Assembly (NCBI GenBank): GCA_012729265.1
Contig: JAAYDL010000339.1
Location: 1 to 34,321, forward strand
DNA: 34,321 bases
Direction of reading: 5' to 3'
Source of the DNA: Lentisphaerota bacterium
GTDB taxonomy: Bacteria > Verrucomicrobiota > Kiritimatiellia > Kiritimatiellales > Pontiellaceae
Below are positions 23,919 through 30,959 of the stretch, one piece after another. Under the pieces are notes generated by a model. That model made no database searches, was not told the DNA's origin, and saw only the letters and a program-made list of their open reading frames with translations. Each line of letters begins with the position of its first letter. Position 1 is the stretch's first letter. A program made the position numbers and the translations under genes.

Positions 23919-23970
23919 AAAATGGTGCCCCGGAGAGGGTTCGAACCTCCGACCCCAGGATTAGGAATCC
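23919..23970. repeat. attL: displaced 3' half of tRNA-Arg
   Basis: aaaatggtgccccggagagggttcgaacctccgaccccaggattaggaatcc, identical to 30879-30930. Confidence 0.93.
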
Positions 23971-24032
23971 GCATTCCCAATATTTCTATAACGTTGCACA
24001 CGTTGTATTTGTGATTTTTGGAAATTTTCCAA

Positions 24033-24049
24033 TGCAACCAATTTGCAAC
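24033..24049. repeat. TGCAACC-N4-TGCAAC phased repeat pair (left end), candidate integrase arm sites
   Basis: AATGCAACCAATTTGCAAC, units 11 bp apart; the same pair arrangement is present at the right end of the element. Confidence 0.6.
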
Positions 24050-24092
24050 TTTTCATTGACTTTCTACTCCCATTTTTCATCATGTTGCCACT

Positions 24093-25322
24093 ATGAAAAC
24101 AAACTCGAAGGCAACGATCAAGAGCGACGATTACGAGGTGCATTACGGATTCAGAATCCGTTTGCAGAACACCAAAGCAGGAAAAAGATACCAAGTTGAC
24201 CTAGGCCGCAAATCTGGCCGACACGTTCGGAAATCCTTTCCGACATTGCAGGAGGCGCGAAACTGGGCGCATAGAATGAGTATTGAGGCCGACAATAAAG
24301 GTATTGCTGCCCTCAGATTCAGCGAAGAACAGAAAACCGATGCCGTTGAAGCCTTGGACACTCTGAAGGAGTTCGGGGTCAACCTACGCACCGCAGCCGC
24401 CTTTTTTGCCAAACATCACAAGAAGGTAGATCGAACCAACGGTTTCGGGGCACTTATTGAGCAATACCTCAAAGAACAGCAGGCCCGCACCAATAAAGGG
24501 GAATTACGTCCCAGCACCTTTAACGATATGCAGGGGCGGTTAAAACCGTTTCAAGCAAATCTGGGCCATATGGCAATCGATGCGATAGAAGCCCGGGACA
24601 TTGATCAACTCATGAATGAAATGAGCTTCACGGGGACGAATCGACAGAATTATAAGCGTTATTTGAGCGGGTTTTTTAACTGGGCCGTTCGGCAAAAGAA
24701 AACAGGCTCCAATCCTGTAACCGAAACCGAAACCGTCAAAGTCGAATCGCACACGCCGGAAATCTACACCCCGTCGCAGGTGAAAGCTCTTTTCAGTGCT
24801 TGCTACAAAGAGGAAAAACCACGCTCCGAACTGATTCCTTTTTTTGCTATAGCCTTCTTTGCGGGGGTACGGCCTGAGGAGATTATGCGCCTTGAATGGA
24901 AAGACATTGATCTAAGCCTTGGGGAAATCCATATCCGAGCCGGACATTCCAAAACACGACAGGCCCGCATTGTGCATCTGTCCGACAACCTGAAAAAATG
25001 GCTCCTGCAATGTCCACAAAAAGAAGGATCAATCTTTCCCTATTCCGAAACCAGTCTGAAACGGTGGCGCAAAGAGGTACACCAAAAGGCGGGGGTGGAA
25101 GTGATTCATGACGGTGCACGACACACCTTTGCCACCTTCTATTTAGCCCTTCACGGACTGGACGACACCTTGCAGGAATTAGGGCACACCGATCCTAAAA
25201 TGCTGTTCAAGCACTATCGCGGCCTTGCCAAAAACAGGAAAGCCCAAGCCCAGAAGTTCTTTGAAATAGCCCCCGCAACGGGAGAAAAGGTTCTGAAAAT
25301 TGAAAAGCAGGGGGCCGCATGA
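24093..25322 (+). CDS. int: Tyrosine recombinase/integrase
   Basis: N-terminal SAM-like domain; catalytic-region motifs GVRPEEIMRLEW, GHSKTRQA, HDGARHTFATF, LGHTDPKMLFKHYRG. Confidence 0.95.
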   Translation: MKTNSKATIKSDDYEVHYGFRIRLQNTKAGKRYQVDLGRKSGRHVRKSFPTLQEARNWAHRMSIEADNKGIAALRFSEEQKTDAVEALDTLKEFGVNLRTAAAFFAKHHKKVDRTNGFGALIEQYLKEQQARTNKGELRPSTFNDMQGRLKPFQANLGHMAIDAIEARDIDQLMNEMSFTGTNRQNYKRYLSGFFNWAVRQKKTGSNPVTETETVKVESHTPEIYTPSQVKALFSACYKEEKPRSELIPFFAIAFFAGVRPEEIMRLEWKDIDLSLGEIHIRAGHSKTRQARIVHLSDNLKKWLLQCPQKEGSIFPYSETSLKRWRKEVHQKAGVEVIHDGARHTFATFYLALHGLDDTLQELGHTDPKMLFKHYRGLAKNRKAQAQKFFEIAPATGEKVLKIEKQGAA

Positions 25323-26092
25323 GCGAACGAGTCAAACGCTGGGAAAGGAAGTGGGAAGAAGAACAGAAAGCCCGAAAAACCGAAGGTCGTAATGCTCAAG
25401 GCGGTATAAACTGGGAGGATATGCCGGACGTAGAGAACCGCATTAAGGGGTATTTGGGTGACTGTAACCTAACGCTGAGCGACGGGGCTATGTTTAAAGT
25501 TTGTTGTCAAATCGTAAACCTGAAGCCGCATATTGAGTTTTGTGCAGAAAAACGAAACAGTCCCGACCGTGAAAAATACGGGCCGAAGCAGTCCATTAAA
25601 AACCAACTCAAGGCCTTACAGCATGCACTAAATGTTCAGCCTATAACAGTGTGCGAAATTAATCGGGCGTTAAGAGAAGAGGCAGAGGAAAATCAAAGGG
25701 AATATGAGGAGCGATGTGCAACAGGAGAAGAGAACAATTTTTTAAAGCGGCCGTTGTCTAAAGAAGAAAAGCGGGCTTGGTCTGAAGCCACAAAACATTC
25801 GTTGCGCTACCTTGATAATGCAGTGAAACGCGCCATTAAGAATCTTGAATCCAAGCCTCTCGATGTTGCTAAACCAATTGACCGCTACTGGATTATTTCC
25901 GATCTGGTGTGTACTTATCGCGATACCATTCATGCGGAGAATCGACGCGCAAGCTACTCACCTCGCTATGAGGGAATCCTGTCCCAATTTATCAATACCG
26001 CGATGGTTCATATTCTGCCCGATGAAAAAGGAGTTTCGCCGAAGACCCTTAAAAGCGTGGTTGATAACTTGCGCAAAACAGACCGACTTTGA
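25319..26092 (+). CDS. Hypothetical element protein, no recognised family
   Basis: Start overlaps the int stop (ATGA); 257 aa; charged and helical composition. Confidence 0.65.
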   Translation: MSERVKRWERKWEEEQKARKTEGRNAQGGINWEDMPDVENRIKGYLGDCNLTLSDGAMFKVCCQIVNLKPHIEFCAEKRNSPDREKYGPKQSIKNQLKALQHALNVQPITVCEINRALREEAEENQREYEERCATGEENNFLKRPLSKEEKRAWSEATKHSLRYLDNAVKRAIKNLESKPLDVAKPIDRYWIISDLVCTYRDTIHAENRRASYSPRYEGILSQFINTAMVHILPDEKGVSPKTLKSVVDNLRKTDRL

Positions 26093-26215
26093 CCTGTACA
26101 CTTTTCCCCCTGAATTAGTGGAGCAGGTGTAAATCTAATCAAGGGCGTGATGCTCTAGTTTGTTCCCCATCAAGCAAGGAAATGGTTTCCGCGCTATTAA
26201 ATGGAGAATACAGCT

Positions 26216-26425
26216 ATGAATCACAAAAAGAAGAACCTCACCCCCCGCCGCGCTCTTAAAATCGGACTCGCCGCCGAATATGTGGGTCTATCAAGACGCG
26301 GACTTTTAGACCTAGCCTATCAAGGCCGGATTCCGTATTGCAAAGTTGGTACGCGCACCACGTTGTTTGACATTGCCGACCTCGATGCTTTCCTTGATTC
26401 CTGCAAGGTGGGAGGTGATGCGTAA
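26216..26425 (+). CDS. Excisionase/AlpA-like small HTH protein
   Basis: PRRALKIGLAAEYVGLSRRGLLDLAYQGRIPYCKVGTRTTLFDIADLDAFLDS resembles the HTH_17 fold; GGAG upstream of ATG 26216 (ORF extends to 26201). Confidence 0.8.
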   Translation: MNHKKKNLTPRRALKIGLAAEYVGLSRRGLLDLAYQGRIPYCKVGTRTTLFDIADLDAFLDSCKVGGDA

Positions 26426-26688
26426 TGGATACGTTTGCCGCCCTGAAGAAAAAATACGGAGTTGCCCCACGGGATCCGCTTCAACTTCCCTCCCTCATTG
26501 CCCCTTGCGATCAATGCGAACGCGATACGCCGACAAAGATTTTATTCATGAAGGCAGGGCTAGGCAATGCCTGTTCCGTTTGTGGCCGCTTGCGCCGGGG
26601 TAAGCCGTATCTCTCGAAGGCAGATTTTGAAAACCAAATGCGCAACAGCGTAAAGGGTGGAAAGCATGAGCAAGACCGATTGGCTTAG
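26425..26688 (+). CDS. Small putative zinc-binding protein
   Basis: CDQC…CSVC pair of CxxC motifs; start overlaps the upstream stop (taATG). Confidence 0.6.
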   Translation: MDTFAALKKKYGVAPRDPLQLPSLIAPCDQCERDTPTKILFMKAGLGNACSVCGRLRRGKPYLSKADFENQMRNSVKGGKHEQDRLA

Positions 26689-27889
26689 AATTCGCCGCCT
26701 TCTATGGGATGATTCGGAGCATGTTTTGATTGTCGATGATGTTCGGCAGACAAAACCAATGAAGCAGGCCGGAAAGATTACCGTGTCGCCGAAGGTGCAA
26801 TATTGTTGCGGGAACTCATTTCGACCGAACAGCACCCGACGCAAAGACAACGTGGCCGAATATCATACTTGGGTGATTGAGTTTGACGAAATGCCTATCG
26901 ATGAACAGCGGGCATTATGGATAAATTCTGACATGCCCTTTACATTGCTTGTTTTTTCAGGCAACAAATCCCTGCATTGCTATATCCGCACCATTGAAAG
27001 CGTAGATGCCGAAACATGGCAACGCATCGCCGACGCTTTGAAACGTATCTACCCCACCGCTGATAAGAAGGTTCTGACAGACCGCGCCCGCCTGACCCGT
27101 TTGCCGGATGGTTTCAGGGGCAATGTATGCCAAGAAGCGGAGACCACGAAAAAGCGGATACCCTTGCAATCATTAACTGACTGGATAACAACCCACGATG
27201 TCACAAAGGAACTAAGGTACAAAGGCACAAAGGAACTAAGCAATAAAGTAGAAGTATACGCCATTGAGCCCCCACCTTCTCCCATTTTAGCCGACAAAAT
27301 TAGGGAAATGGATACAGCCGAACAACTCTTTAAGGAAAACTACCCCGACCTGTATCGGCTCTATGACCGCCTTATTATGAACCGCTTCAAGGCAGAGCGC
27401 GGAAGGCGCAACGAATGCCTGATTGAGTTGGTGACATTCGCGCACGACGCTTTTAGTAAACAGGTAGCAATGAAGTTTGCAGAATGCTTCTACCGATTCA
27501 ATGCCGTCGCCTTCAACGATCCGCTTGATCAGCACAAGCAGGAGGCCGCTGCACAATGGCGGATTCTTGATGCTGAATATTCATCCCGACTTGGTTCGTA
27601 TGAGTCGGAGGTTTACCGCGCCATTCCCGAACGAGAACAAACCTTTTTCCGGATATGCCGAAGTTTAGCGCACAAAGAAGGTTCTGAAATGACCCTCAAT
27701 ATTCCTATGCACCATTTCGGGCATAGAATGGAGTTGGATGGAAAACAGGTTTCGCGGCTTATCGACCGCTTCAACCTGTATGGATTGATTAAACTTGTAA
27801 AACGCGGCACCTCTCACAGAACTGGTAAAAATGGCCGACCGGAATATGGAAAAGCAAGTTTGTACAAATGGAATCCCGTAACGAAATAA
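26666..27889 (+). CDS. Archaeo-eukaryotic primase (AEP/PriPol)-like replication protein
   Basis: WVIEFDEMP (acidic motif I), LLVFSGNKSLHCYI (SxH motif II), DRARLTRLPDGFRGN; C-terminal winged-helix-like region. No helicase domain is visible. ORF extends to 26657. Confidence 0.7.
   Translation: MSKTDWLRIRRLLWDDSEHVLIVDDVRQTKPMKQAGKITVSPKVQYCCGNSFRPNSTRRKDNVAEYHTWVIEFDEMPIDEQRALWINSDMPFTLLVFSGNKSLHCYIRTIESVDAETWQRIADALKRIYPTADKKVLTDRARLTRLPDGFRGNVCQEAETTKKRIPLQSLTDWITTHDVTKELRYKGTKELSNKVEVYAIEPPPSPILADKIREMDTAEQLFKENYPDLYRLYDRLIMNRFKAERGRRNECLIELVTFAHDAFSKQVAMKFAECFYRFNAVAFNDPLDQHKQEAAAQWRILDAEYSSRLGSYESEVYRAIPEREQTFFRICRSLAHKEGSEMTLNIPMHHFGHRMELDGKQVSRLIDRFNLYGLIKLVKRGTSHRTGKNGRPEYGKASLYKWNPVTK
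27203..27250. repeat. Degenerate 8-bp tandem repeat (ACAAAGGN/ACTAAGGN) inside the primase-like gene
   Basis: ACAAAGGA ACTAAGGT ACAAAGGC ACAAAGGA ACTAAGCA ATAAAGTA; a perfect 15-bp repeat CACAAAGGAACTAAG occurs at 27202-27216 and 27226-27240. Confidence 0.75.
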
Positions 27890-27909
27890 AAAACGAAAAC
27901 TGTCACACT

Positions 27910-28362
27910 ATGAAAATTATTATCGACACACGCGAAAGAACAGAACTTGCATTCACCCACTTTGAGGCCGAACGCGGAACCTTGCAAAGCGGAGATTACA
28001 GCATTACCGGATTAACGCACAGATTCGCCATAGAACGCAAAAGCATCGACGACCTAACCCAGAGCATCACCACAGGCCGCGAACGCTTTGAGCGCGAATT
28101 GCACCGCCTTAGAGGCTTTGACTTTGCCCGCTTGCTGATCATTGGAACCGAAACAGAAATCAGACAGCACCGCTACCGAAGCAGAGTTCCACCCAAAAGC
28201 GTACTTCATAGCCTCTATGCTTTCGAGGTACGCTATCAAATCCCCGTGGTCTGGGCTGGAACAGAAGCCAATGCCGCCGCCCTGATTGAACGCTGGGCGT
28301 TCTGGTATGCAAGAGAAGTTAAAAACGCCGCTGAAGGCATGAACAAGGAGATGACAATATGA
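27910..28362 (+). CDS. ERCC4/XPF-type nuclease domain protein
   Basis: MKIIIDTRERTEL…LQSGDYSI…FAIERKSIDDLTQSI…RFERELHRLRGF…LLIIGTE; GDY and ERKxxxD signature. ORF extends to 27868. Confidence 0.88.
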   Translation: MKIIIDTRERTELAFTHFEAERGTLQSGDYSITGLTHRFAIERKSIDDLTQSITTGRERFERELHRLRGFDFARLLIIGTETEIRQHRYRSRVPPKSVLHSLYAFEVRYQIPVVWAGTEANAAALIERWAFWYAREVKNAAEGMNKEMTI

Positions 28363-28625
28363 AAATGACACCAAAACAAAACCGCTTCTGCATCGAATTC
28401 GGCAAAGATTTTGATCCGTTAGAAGCTGCAATTCGGGCCGGGTATTCTCCCGGAACAGTCTCACGAACGGTGCTTGCACTGTCAACGAATCAGAAAGTGC
28501 TCGATAAAGTCCGAGAACTATACTACACGCGGCATATCGACATTCAGACGACCGAAGGCACACTTGCGCAGGTGAGCGTGTTTACAGAGCGTTTTGAGCG
28601 GAAAGAGGAGGCAGGGATAAAATGA
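28359..28625 (+). CDS. Short small-terminase-like protein (TerS 1)
   Basis: MTPKQNRFCIEFGKDFDPLEAAIRAGYSPGT resembles the Terminase_2 N-terminal HTH; start overlaps the upstream stop (ATGA). Confidence 0.7.
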   Translation: MKMTPKQNRFCIEFGKDFDPLEAAIRAGYSPGTVSRTVLALSTNQKVLDKVRELYYTRHIDIQTTEGTLAQVSVFTERFERKEEAGIK

Positions 28626-29044
28626 CACCGAAACAAAGCAGATTCTGCGAAGAATACATTATCGACCTCAACGCCACACAAGCCGCAATCCGGGCGGGCT
28701 ACAGCCAAAAGGCGGCACGGGCAATTGCTGCCGAAAACCTGTCAAAACCTGACATTCAAAAAAAAGTTGAGGAGTTAAAGGCCGCCGCTACGGAAAAAGC
28801 AGAAGTCAGCGTTCAAGATGTCCTTTGCGGGATTCGTTCCATTGCCGAAGATGAGGGCGCAACCAACCGCGATAAGCTGAAGGCTTGGGAATTGTTGGGC
28901 CGCTATAATGGCATGTTTACCGATCGAATTGAGTCCCGTGTTCAGCAGGTTGTTGAGGAAAAAGGAACGCCGGAAGAGTACGCGCGGAAGGTTGCCGAGG
29001 TCACAAAAGAGATTTTAGAAAAGTATCGCGACAGACAATACTAA
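28622..29044 (+). CDS. Phage terminase small subunit (Terminase_2-like; TerS 2)
   Basis: MTPKQSRFCEEYIIDLNATQAAIRAGYSQKAARAIAAENLSKPDIQKKVEEL is a characteristic TerS N-terminus; start overlaps the upstream stop (ATGA). Confidence 0.88.
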   Translation: MTPKQSRFCEEYIIDLNATQAAIRAGYSQKAARAIAAENLSKPDIQKKVEELKAAATEKAEVSVQDVLCGIRSIAEDEGATNRDKLKAWELLGRYNGMFTDRIESRVQQVVEEKGTPEEYARKVAEVTKEILEKYRDRQY

Positions 29045-29475
29045 CCTTGTGCGCTGCTTTTATTTTTCAGGACGGCACTAAGGATGATTAATCCGCTTCC
29101 AACAATAAGAATAGTCCATCCCCATTGTAGGTGAACTGACTTCATTATATCTGTTGTCAATTCATGAAACATAGCCCAATCATCGGCTTGAGATTCAGCT
29201 TGAGAAATCGATTTTTTTAGAGCTATTTGATAATCTATTAACGTGTAAAGAATTATGGACAGGCTAAGTACTCCTGTTCCCAAGAGGATTTTATTAACTC
29301 CTTTAAGCGATAATATCAGCGAAGCTATGGCTAAAATCAAAATACAGATACCAGTAGCATTGCTTTTCTGCATATAAGTCATGCTTCCAATAATGGGGGC
29401 GCTGATTACAGGTGTAAAAACTCCTATTAGAAGAATAATTGCCCCAGATATTCCCATTGTTTGCTTTGTATTCAT
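29041..29475 (-). CDS. Hypothetical four-TM membrane protein (cargo candidate)
   Basis: Several hydrophobic segments (MGISGAIILLIGVFTPVI, GICILILAIASLIL, ILLGTGVLSLSIILYTLI, WGWTILIVGSGLIILSAV); SD AGGAG before ATG 29475; convergent with TerS 2. Confidence 0.65.
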   Translation of the reverse strand: MNTKQTMGISGAIILLIGVFTPVISAPIIGSMTYMQKSNATGICILILAIASLILSLKGVNKILLGTGVLSLSIILYTLIDYQIALKKSISQAESQADDWAMFHELTTDIMKSVHLQWGWTILIVGSGLIILSAVLKNKSSAQG

Positions 29476-29504
29476 GTTTCTCCTTTTTTGGATTGAGGTA
29501 GATC

Positions 29505-30404
29505 TCACTGCTCAATAATTTCCAGCACATTCCCGTCAAGATCACACTTCGCCGTAATTGTATTTGGTATAATTCCGCCAAAGGCGTTTGATCCTCGATA
29601 TGTTGTAAAGACAAGCAGGTGTTCACCCAGATCTGAAAAGGTGGTTTTTACGTGTTTATATGATTCCGGATTGTACATCGCGTTCTTGATGACCTTTGTG
29701 AGTTCGATATGCGATCCATCCCAAGCACTGAATCCTTTTTCAATTCTTTCCATCCGCTCGGCGGCCAGCTGTTCAGCCTCCACTGCCTTACGCTGTTCTT
29801 CTTCAGCTAGGCGCCTTGCTTCAAGCTTTCGTTGTTCTTCCAGTTCCTTTGCCGCAATAACGGCCTTTTCTTCACTGATTTTCTGAAGCGCCCGATAAGT
29901 TGCATATACCGTTGCAAAGCACTCTGCTCCTGACTCAGGAGAGAGCTCAGATTCTGTAAATCCAAATGTAAAACCTTCTCGTATTAGCTGAATTTCATCC
30001 TCTGTTATTTGGGAGATGGTTCCTTGTTGGGTGGAGCCATTGTTGAGCGTAAGTGTAATTTCTGATCCCACTTCTGGAGCTTTAAAATCAGGGAGATAGA
30101 GAGCGATTAATTCAGCCTCTCTGGCTTCCCAGTCCGGTGTGATTGGTTCTGCTGGTGCTGTTGGAACAGGGGAGATCTTCTGCTTTTTTTGAGAGGAAGG
30201 GGCCGTCTGTTCCGTTGAGGTGGTATCTGTTCCGTCTGATTCAGGTGCTGGTGCAACGATTGCGCCGATTACGATTACGAGAACCAAGAGGATAAAAACA
30301 CCGAGGCAACCCGATTTCTTTTTTACGGGTGCTCCGCAGTGAGGACATTTTTTTGCTCGTTTGCTTACCTTTCCCCCGCAGTCCTTGCATTTCTTCAGTG
30401 CCAT
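29505..30404 (-). CDS. Zinc-ribbon, single-TM, coiled-coil protein (cargo candidate)
   Basis: MALKKCKDCGGKVSKRAKKCPHCGAPVKKK zinc ribbon, then TM CLGVFILLVLVIVIGAIV, then a long Glu/Arg coiled coil. Strong SD ACAGGAGGAAGTC before ATG 30404. Confidence 0.8.
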   Translation of the reverse strand: MALKKCKDCGGKVSKRAKKCPHCGAPVKKKSGCLGVFILLVLVIVIGAIVAPAPESDGTDTTSTEQTAPSSQKKQKISPVPTAPAEPITPDWEAREAELIALYLPDFKAPEVGSEITLTLNNGSTQQGTISQITEDEIQLIREGFTFGFTESELSPESGAECFATVYATYRALQKISEEKAVIAAKELEEQRKLEARRLAEEEQRKAVEAEQLAAERMERIEKGFSAWDGSHIELTKVIKNAMYNPESYKHVKTTFSDLGEHLLVFTTYRGSNAFGGIIPNTITAKCDLDGNVLEIIEQ

Positions 30405-30434
30405 GACTTCCTCCTGTAGGTTTTTTACGGGGTT

Positions 30435-30450
30435 CCTCTTCAAAAAGAGG
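30435..30450. promoter_or_regulatory. Hairpin immediately upstream of the zinc-ribbon gene
   Basis: CCTCTT-caaa-AAGAGG, extended by GGGGT (30429-30433) and ACCCC (30454-30458). Confidence 0.55.
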
Positions 30451-30477
30451 GCGACCCCAACATGTCTCACCCCGGGC

Positions 30478-30568
30478 ACCGCCAAGCGCCCAACAGAAAA
30501 CACGAAGAAGCCGCCCCGAGGTGGGGTGCTTCAACGAAGTAGTTTTCTGTTTCTTTAAACTTGGCGGT
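30478..30568. ncRNA. Nested stem structure (candidate structured RNA or DNA cruciform) in the leader of the zinc-ribbon gene
   Basis: Three coaxial complementary blocks: ACCGCCAAG/CTTGGCGGT (30478-30486/30560-30568), AACAGAAAAC/GTTTTCTGTT (30492-30501/30542-30551), and GAAGC..CCCC/GGGG.GCTTC (30507-30517/30523-30532). Confidence 0.55.
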
Positions 30569-30679
30569 TTTGGAGTGAAACGTACTGCGTCTACACGCAA
30601 AATTATTCAATTGTCTTCGGTCAAGTTACTCCTTTTTGAGAGCAGAGCAAGAGCAGAAAAAGGAGGCGAGAAAGGAAAA

Positions 30680-30798
30680 TGCAACCGATATGCAACGCCT
30701 CATATCTTCATGCGTTCCGATACGGGAAAATATTTTCAGTGCAAAGGGGAGAAAATCGATGCAACCGAAATGCAACCGATTGAGGACTTTTGGTTGCA
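30680..30798. repeat. TGCAACC phased repeat pairs (right end) plus inverted GGTTGCA, candidate integrase arm sites
   Basis: Pairs at 30680/30691 and 30760/30771, each 11 bp apart; inverted copy GGTTGCA at 30792-30798. Confidence 0.6.
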
Positions 30799-30878
30799 TT
30801 TTACGCCTATTTTGCCACTTTCGGCACATATTGGCGAGGGCAAGAAAAAAGCCCTAACTCGCTAAGAATCAAGGCTTT

Positions 30879-30930
30879 AAAATGGTGCCCCGGAGAGGGT
30901 TCGAACCTCCGACCCCAGGATTAGGAATCC
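30879..30930. repeat. attR: 3' half of the intact tRNA-Arg
   Basis: 52 bp identical to 23919-23970; ends just past the anticodon loop. Confidence 0.93.
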
Positions 30931-30959
30931 TGTGCTCTGTCCAGCTGAGCTACCGGGGC
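30883..30959 (-). tRNA. tRNA-Arg(CCT), CCA end encoded
   Basis: Minus strand GCCCCGGTAGCTCAGCTGGACAGAGCACAGGATTCCTAATCCTGGGGTCGGAGGTTCGAACCCTCTCCGGGGCACCA folds as a cloverleaf; anticodon loop TTCCTAA. Confidence 0.95.

Follow-up and report, generated by a model that had tools for sequence, protein, structure and literature searches.

What carries a 7-kb island that has an integrase and replication genes of its own and no gene for a virus particle? We asked this of a mobile element of 7,012 bp at positions 23919–30930 of contig JAAYDL010000339.1 (assembly GCA_012729265.1, Lentisphaerota bacterium), analysed within a window that comprises the whole 34,321-nucleotide (34-kb) stretch of DNA. A first-pass annotation, made from the letters alone, had read this locus as a phage satellite in a PVC-like host. 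The analysis supports that reading: at a probability of about 0.75, the element is an integrated phage satellite of the general PICI/PICMI type, located in a tRNA-Arg gene of a relative of the Pontiellaceae (Kiritimatiellota), and it probably travels inside particles that another virus builds.

Boundaries and gene content of the element

The features of the element are listed below by window coordinates and strand (HTH, helix-turn-helix; AEP, archaeo-eukaryotic primase; TerS, small terminase subunit).

23919–23970, no strand: attL-side 52-bp direct repeat, a copy of the tRNA-Arg 3′ end, 100% identical to 30879–30930
24032–24039, +: putative integrase arm-type site ATGCAACC, 61 bp inward of the left-hand repeat (motif search)
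24093–25322, +: tyrosine integrase, 409 aa (PF00589, E 2.7e-15; PHROG integrase, E 1.6e-47)
25319–26092, +: orf2, 257 aa, overlapping int by ATGA; no convincing family match
26201–26425, +: AlpA-type HTH protein, excisionase-like (PF12728, E 1.3e-8; TIGR01764 excisionase family, above cut-off)
26425–26688, +: CxxC zinc-type protein whose place upstream of the primase is conserved; no convincing family match
26657–27889, +, likely start ATG 26666: AEP-type primase with a C-terminal winged-helix-like region and no helicase (phrog_2597, E 5.9e-12; PF01896, E 0.004)
27868–28362, +: ERCC4 (XPF/Hef-type) nuclease (PF02732, E 5.9e-15; phrog_3490, E 4.9e-22)
28359–28625, +: TerS-a, 88 aa, TerS DNA-binding HTH only (PF03592, E 1.6e-8, HTH part)
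28622–29044, +: TerS-b, 140 aa, SF6/SPP1-type small terminase (PF03592, E 1.1e-28)
29041–29508, −: predicted membrane protein, accessory (phrog_38854, function unknown)
29505–30503, −: zinc-ribbon protein, accessory (phrog_3403 C-terminus; Pfam and PHROGs scans)
30679–30799: four putative arm sites ATGCAACC, starting at 30679, 30759 and 30770 on + and at 30792 on − (motif search)
30879–30930, no strand: attR-side 52-bp direct repeat, within tRNA-Arg (repeat comparison and ARAGORN)
30883–30959, −: tRNA-Arg(CCT), intact, the integration site (ARAGORN)

The 52-bp direct repeats in tRNA-Arg, already read from the sequence in the first pass, are exact, and because ARAGORN places the tRNA-Arg(CCT) gene across the right end, the right repeat is the 3′ part of that gene. 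The GC fraction of the element is 0.472, as compared to 0.520 and 0.535 in the two flanks. Family scans with Pfam and PHROGs covered all 10 open reading frames (ORFs) and matched the integrase, the AlpA-like HTH protein, the primase-like protein and the ERCC4 nuclease, in agreement with the earlier assignments. The first pass had also seen no ORF for a large terminase (TerL), portal, capsid or tail in the 7 kb, and 0/10 ORFs matched such a virion family in PHROGs; lysis families were likewise without a match in both scans. The remnants of virion or lysis genes that would mark a decayed prophage did not turn up in these scans, nor did a TerL-like ORF; a simple prophage was rejected. The scan identified no relaxase or transfer gene among the ORFs, and a conjugation-dependent mobilisable element was rejected for want of a relaxase.

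The genes are intact and tightly overlapping throughout. The overlap of int with orf2, exactly 4 nt (ATGA/GTGA), is kept in 5 relatives. In the six-gene run alpA–CxxC–prim–ercc4–terSa–terSb every junction overlaps by 1 to 32 bases, so that the run from alpA to terSb can be read as a single coupled operon. The two antisense ORFs that follow match only phage families of unknown function, besides zinc-ribbon motifs, and a PADLOC scan of the element gave no notable defence match that would name them.

The motif ATGCAACC occurs 5 times in the window, always just inside one of the two ends of the element, where chance predicts a mean of 1.43 copies per whole window. Two islands in tRNA-Lys genes with integrases 64% and 61% identical to this one (genomes G038 and G032) have one copy of the motif 61–65 bp inside the left repeat and two copies near the right end; the pattern is absent from bounded islands with more distant integrases. 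From this distribution, the copies are probably arm-binding sites of the integrase, and their retention at both ends argues that the attachment (att) regions are intact.

These observations bear on a first alternative, in which the element is the remnant of a decayed prophage that kept its integrase, replication genes and TerS and lost its virion genes. TerS normally adjoins TerL, and there are true phage contigs, L167 among them, that combine ERCC4 with a primase-sized gene and TerS, so the modules of the element could be phage leftovers. The intact, overlapping ORFs, the exact att repeats and the arm sites kept at both ends speak against decay, which we consider improbable also in view of the related islands described below.

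Small terminase genes without a large terminase

For TerS-b, a phmmer comparison with the SF6 TerS structure 3zqp (E 4.4e-18) gave a match over the DNA-binding region as well as the oligomerisation region. In the TerS-b model (pLDDT 85) the DNA-binding domain overlays SF6 2cmp at 1.2 Å with 58% identity, and the top structural match is a full-length SPP1-like TerS. TerS-b is thus a complete small terminase and not the unrelated HTH protein that the first pass had allowed for. Its companion falls short of the two TerS-like genes claimed there: TerS-a matches the N-terminal part of Terminase_2 and, weakly, the first ~35 residues of the same TerS proteins in the PDB, and it has the HTH without the oligomerisation domain.

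A large terminase would be expected beside such a gene in a phage. Of the 73 TerS homologues in viral contigs with enough downstream sequence, 68 are followed within 1.2 kb by an ORF of 380 aa or more on the same strand; among six of these TerL-sized ORFs tested against Pfam, three belonged to Terminase_3 and one to Terminase_6C, while the other two remained without a match. In the element the next gene after TerS-b lies on the opposite strand. A phmmer search with 75 candidate TerLs from viral contigs found no TerL among the 297 ORFs of 12 islands, while as a positive control 62/75 of these TerLs recovered at least 5 of one another.

The PF03592 (Terminase_2) TerS family is rare, being present in 6/146 related genomes. 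Five tRNA-bounded islands in four genomes, including this element, contain it and have no detectable TerL; the others measure 5.3 kb in tRNA-Lys (G125), 7.1 kb in tRNA-Ser and about 10.1 kb in tRNA-Asn (both G100), and 15.4 kb in tRNA-Asn (G024). The remaining loci are a phage contig (G109) and an integrase-bearing contig whose ends were not found (G047). TerS-like HTH genes of another kind occur as well. The G038 island has one (phrog_2538, E 4e-11), and in G082 a weakly matching TerS-like HTH gene (phrog_24579, E 0.003) overlaps ERCC4 by 4 bases, as in this element.

The TerS islands are not all alike. The two G100 islands (G100:C1, L222 and L223, in tRNA-Asn and tRNA-Ser) share a near-identical TerS-184-189-87-82-117 gene run, and one of them also encodes a tape-measure protein (PF20155, E 1.8e-21). 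The G024 island (G024:C1, L071 with L248/L249) contains TerS, a DnaC-like loader and proteins of 565 and 1895 aa with no PHROG match. In one phage contig (L167, IMG/VR 3300022209_000023), ERCC4, a zinc-ribbon protein similar to that of the element, a primase-sized gene, TerS and a TerL-sized ORF adjoin. A phage of this kind is a possible source of the ERCC4–TerS module of the satellite.

The TerS genes might serve another end. In a satellite whose TerS-a and TerS-b mainly interfere with the helper terminase, neither protein would package the element's own DNA. TerS-a, a bare DNA-binding domain, could compete for pac sites, and satellites do interfere with helper TerS, as SaPIs do with Ppi. TerS-b, however, has the regions for normal ring assembly, and we regard pure interference as very improbable.

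Related islands and replication genes

Conservation of the element was traced through its primase and its integrase. Full-length primase relatives (47–60% identity) occur at four loci in three genomes (G016, G037 and twice in G005). The host group is Pontiellaceae within the Kiritimatiellota, consistent with the PVC-like host suggested in the first pass; G016, from the same genus, is recorded as Pontiellaceae bacterium B12227. At all four loci a CxxC gene precedes the primase, and an integrase with its adjacent ORF lies upstream; G016 is the only one in which blastp detected AlpA. The counterpart of the CxxC protein at locus L221 is 33% identical (E 2e-10). In wider searches, a primase-alignment scan of 85,462 species returned two loci only (G037 and G016), a scan of 388 genomes of the phylum returned two same-genus genomes and one distant partial match, and IMG/VR yielded no relatives.

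Integrase relatives (51–64% identity) extend to further islands, several of which have AlpA combined with other replication genes. Those with defined ends are in G037 (tRNA-Met, 6.9 kb), G032 (tRNA-Lys, 7.1 kb), G038 (tRNA-Lys, 8.4 kb, with the most similar integrase at 64%) and G021 (tRNA-Lys, 13.8 kb). For the G016:C195, G005:C2, G013 and G001 islands no end repeats were found, and these were left out of the bounded-island count. Two siblings have defence cargo: the G038:C211 island (L213, 2409–5842) encodes the IetAS antiphage pair, and the G021:C2 island (L032, 2425–7891), with the same integrase type and AlpA, encodes an AbiL pair and restriction-like genes. By analogy with these islands the antisense genes near the end of the element are plausible accessory cargo.

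The islands also bear on the reading as a prophage remnant. The first pass had held that homologous blocks always sitting inside full prophages would point to decay; the core was instead found in the four compact tRNA-bounded islands above, and the search of 12 islands found no TerL-like ORF. The same chassis, at similar sizes, in different tRNA genes and without virion genes is not what independent decay would give.

The primase itself retains the AEP signatures ExD, SGxKSxH and RLxRLPxxxR, which are invariant or nearly so in 11 homologues. It resembles the AEP domain of the cyanophage S-2L PrimPol (hmm E 1.9e-5; Foldseek E 1.3e-3, 3.3 Å over 110 columns), and among known structures its model, of moderate confidence (pLDDT 70), comes closest to the plasmid primase RepB′ (E 1.8e-4). 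No helicase or Rep domain was recognised in it. Short 8-bp tandem repeats of the ACAAAGGA/ACTAAGGT type lie in the linker at 27195–27242 and may be coding repeats or iterons. The ERCC4 protein matches the Hef nuclease domain and retains the motif GDYS...IERKSIDD. In other genomes of the class, ERCC4 genes recur near tRNA genes or beside AlpA and primase genes (L065, L066, L067, L068, L069, L070).

Another alternative, to which the RepB′ match lends some support, is a self-replicating integrative element, plasmid-like or a defence island, that is not moved by phage and whose TerS-b is a domesticated DNA-binding regulator. Also in its favour, the nearest primase relatives have no recognised TerS and defence cargo is common in the siblings. 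Against it, TerS-b retains its oligomerisation region beside the HTH; two kinds of TerS genes recur in these islands, and the family scan showed no relaxase or transfer gene. We judge this alternative unlikely.

Several further observations weigh against a satellite. No TerS was recognised in the islands with the most similar primases (one in G016, one in G037 and two in G005), which places TerS outside the conserved primase core. Nor does the element have a recognised gene for capsid size or interference. A genus-wide comparison of the right flank revealed no empty site, a result that is uninformative because the flanking gene, present in 26/28 genus genomes, is not beside tRNA-Arg in the 14 other loci checked. 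The metagenome-assembled genome (MAG) that contains the element has two HK97-type phage fragments with TerL, portal, protease and capsid genes: C32 (L237, 8.5 kb), which also encodes connectors and a tape measure, and C89 (L238/L242, 7.9 kb), which pairs a PF05119 TerS with TerL_ATPase/TerL_nuclease. Their HK97-type terminase differs in class from the TerL partners of the TerS-b family, and PF04466/PF17289 searches found no Terminase_3 or Terminase_6C TerL in the MAG (94% complete, 385 contigs). The helper therefore probably does not reside in this cell, or the assembly lacks its TerL. As a TerL detector, phrog_2 gave three weak partial matches in the MAG, apparently to other ATPases or helicases, and missed the real HK97-type TerL of C89; no absence was concluded from it.

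Proposed cycle and comparison with known satellites

Analogy with PICMI (PMC10803314) and the SaPIs (PMC6092414) suggests how the satellite could operate. PICMI has been demonstrated to be a satellite; its excision requires int, the int-overlapping gene and alpA, and its replication requires prim (PMC10803314); AlpA is an activator in PICIs, which sometimes have terS, and the satellite TerS of SaPIs directs packaging (PMC6092414). By this scheme a helper phage would turn on alpA, and AlpA and Int, with orf2 perhaps in the role of the PICMI gene iolg, would excise the element between its 52-bp att repeats. The AEP primase would then start replication with the helicase and polymerase of the host or helper, and the ERCC4 nuclease may trim branched replication intermediates. 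TerS-b would recognise a pac-like site in the element's DNA and pass that DNA on to the helper TerL, which would fill helper capsids. TerS-a could act as a regulator or as a competitor of the helper TerS.

We would give somewhat less than even odds to a broader proposal, that the Kiritimatiellota harbour an undescribed satellite lineage. Its members would share one chassis, a tRNA-targeting integrase with its own arm motif, an int-overlapping gene and AlpA. They would differ by exchange of the replication module (AEP primase, primase-helicase or replication initiator), the packaging module (SF6-type TerS or another TerS-like HTH protein) and the defence cargo (IetAS or AbiL), and the HTH-only TerS might represent a new form of helper interference. 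Most phage satellites described to date come from the Proteobacteria, the Firmicutes and a small number of further groups; to our knowledge, the Kiritimatiellota lie outside the phyla with described PICI or SaPI satellites, and we know of little satellite work there. If the interpretation is correct, a TerS-bearing, tRNA-targeting satellite in this phylum means that the PICI/PICMI plan arose or spread in a group with almost no phage biology. The arm motif, the primase and TerS offer a sequence handle for finding helpers, and the defence systems of the sibling islands suggest that such islands shape phage resistance in the Kiritimatiellota.

Against the named satellite families (listed in PMC11389934), the element shows partial likenesses. 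Phages with Terminase_2 and Terminase_3 (SPP1/SF6-like packaging) share the TerS-b family, while the element is without TerL, portal, capsid and tail. An identity as a cfPICI was rejected, as the PHROGs scan detected no capsid, portal or terminase set of its own. The P4-like satellites have an AlpA-type regulator and a primase. P4, like the element, integrates in a tRNA gene. They differ in that Pfam and PHROGs scans of the element revealed no alpha-type primase-helicase and no psu-, delta- or sid-like gene, and that the element has TerS.

With the PICIs and SaPIs (PMC6092414) the element has in common an integrase, att repeats, an AlpA-type regulator (AlpA in Gram-negative PICIs, the alternative being Stl/Rpr), a primase, the absence of virion genes, a TerS co-directional with the replication genes (terS being optional in PICIs), and accessory genes at the end. 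It is set apart by the ERCC4 nuclease, the HTH-only second TerS and the lack of a recognised interference or capsid-size gene, and whereas in PICIs pri and rep, in many cases as a fusion, form the replication module next to the ori, the element has an AEP primase and no recognised Rep or helicase part. Judged from its sequence, membership in the PICIs is compatible.

The first-pass statement that the combination fits no nameable family must be qualified, since the order int, overlapping gene (iolg, ATGA overlap), alpA, one gene, prim is that of PICMI from the Vibrionaceae (PMC10803314). The two also resemble each other in small size (6.1 kb in the prototype), in lacking virion and capsid-remodelling genes, and in accessory cargo. 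PICMI, however, inserts beside fis, has a DUF3987/DUF5906 primase and lacks terS, whereas the element lies in tRNA-Arg and combines ERCC4 and TerS with an AEP primase unrelated to that of PICMI; a Pfam scan of the element found neither of the PICMI-type primase families PF13148 and PF19263. The element is not a PICMI by primase type and insertion site, and its primase type, site and ERCC4 nuclease fit neither the PICMI nor the PICI family.

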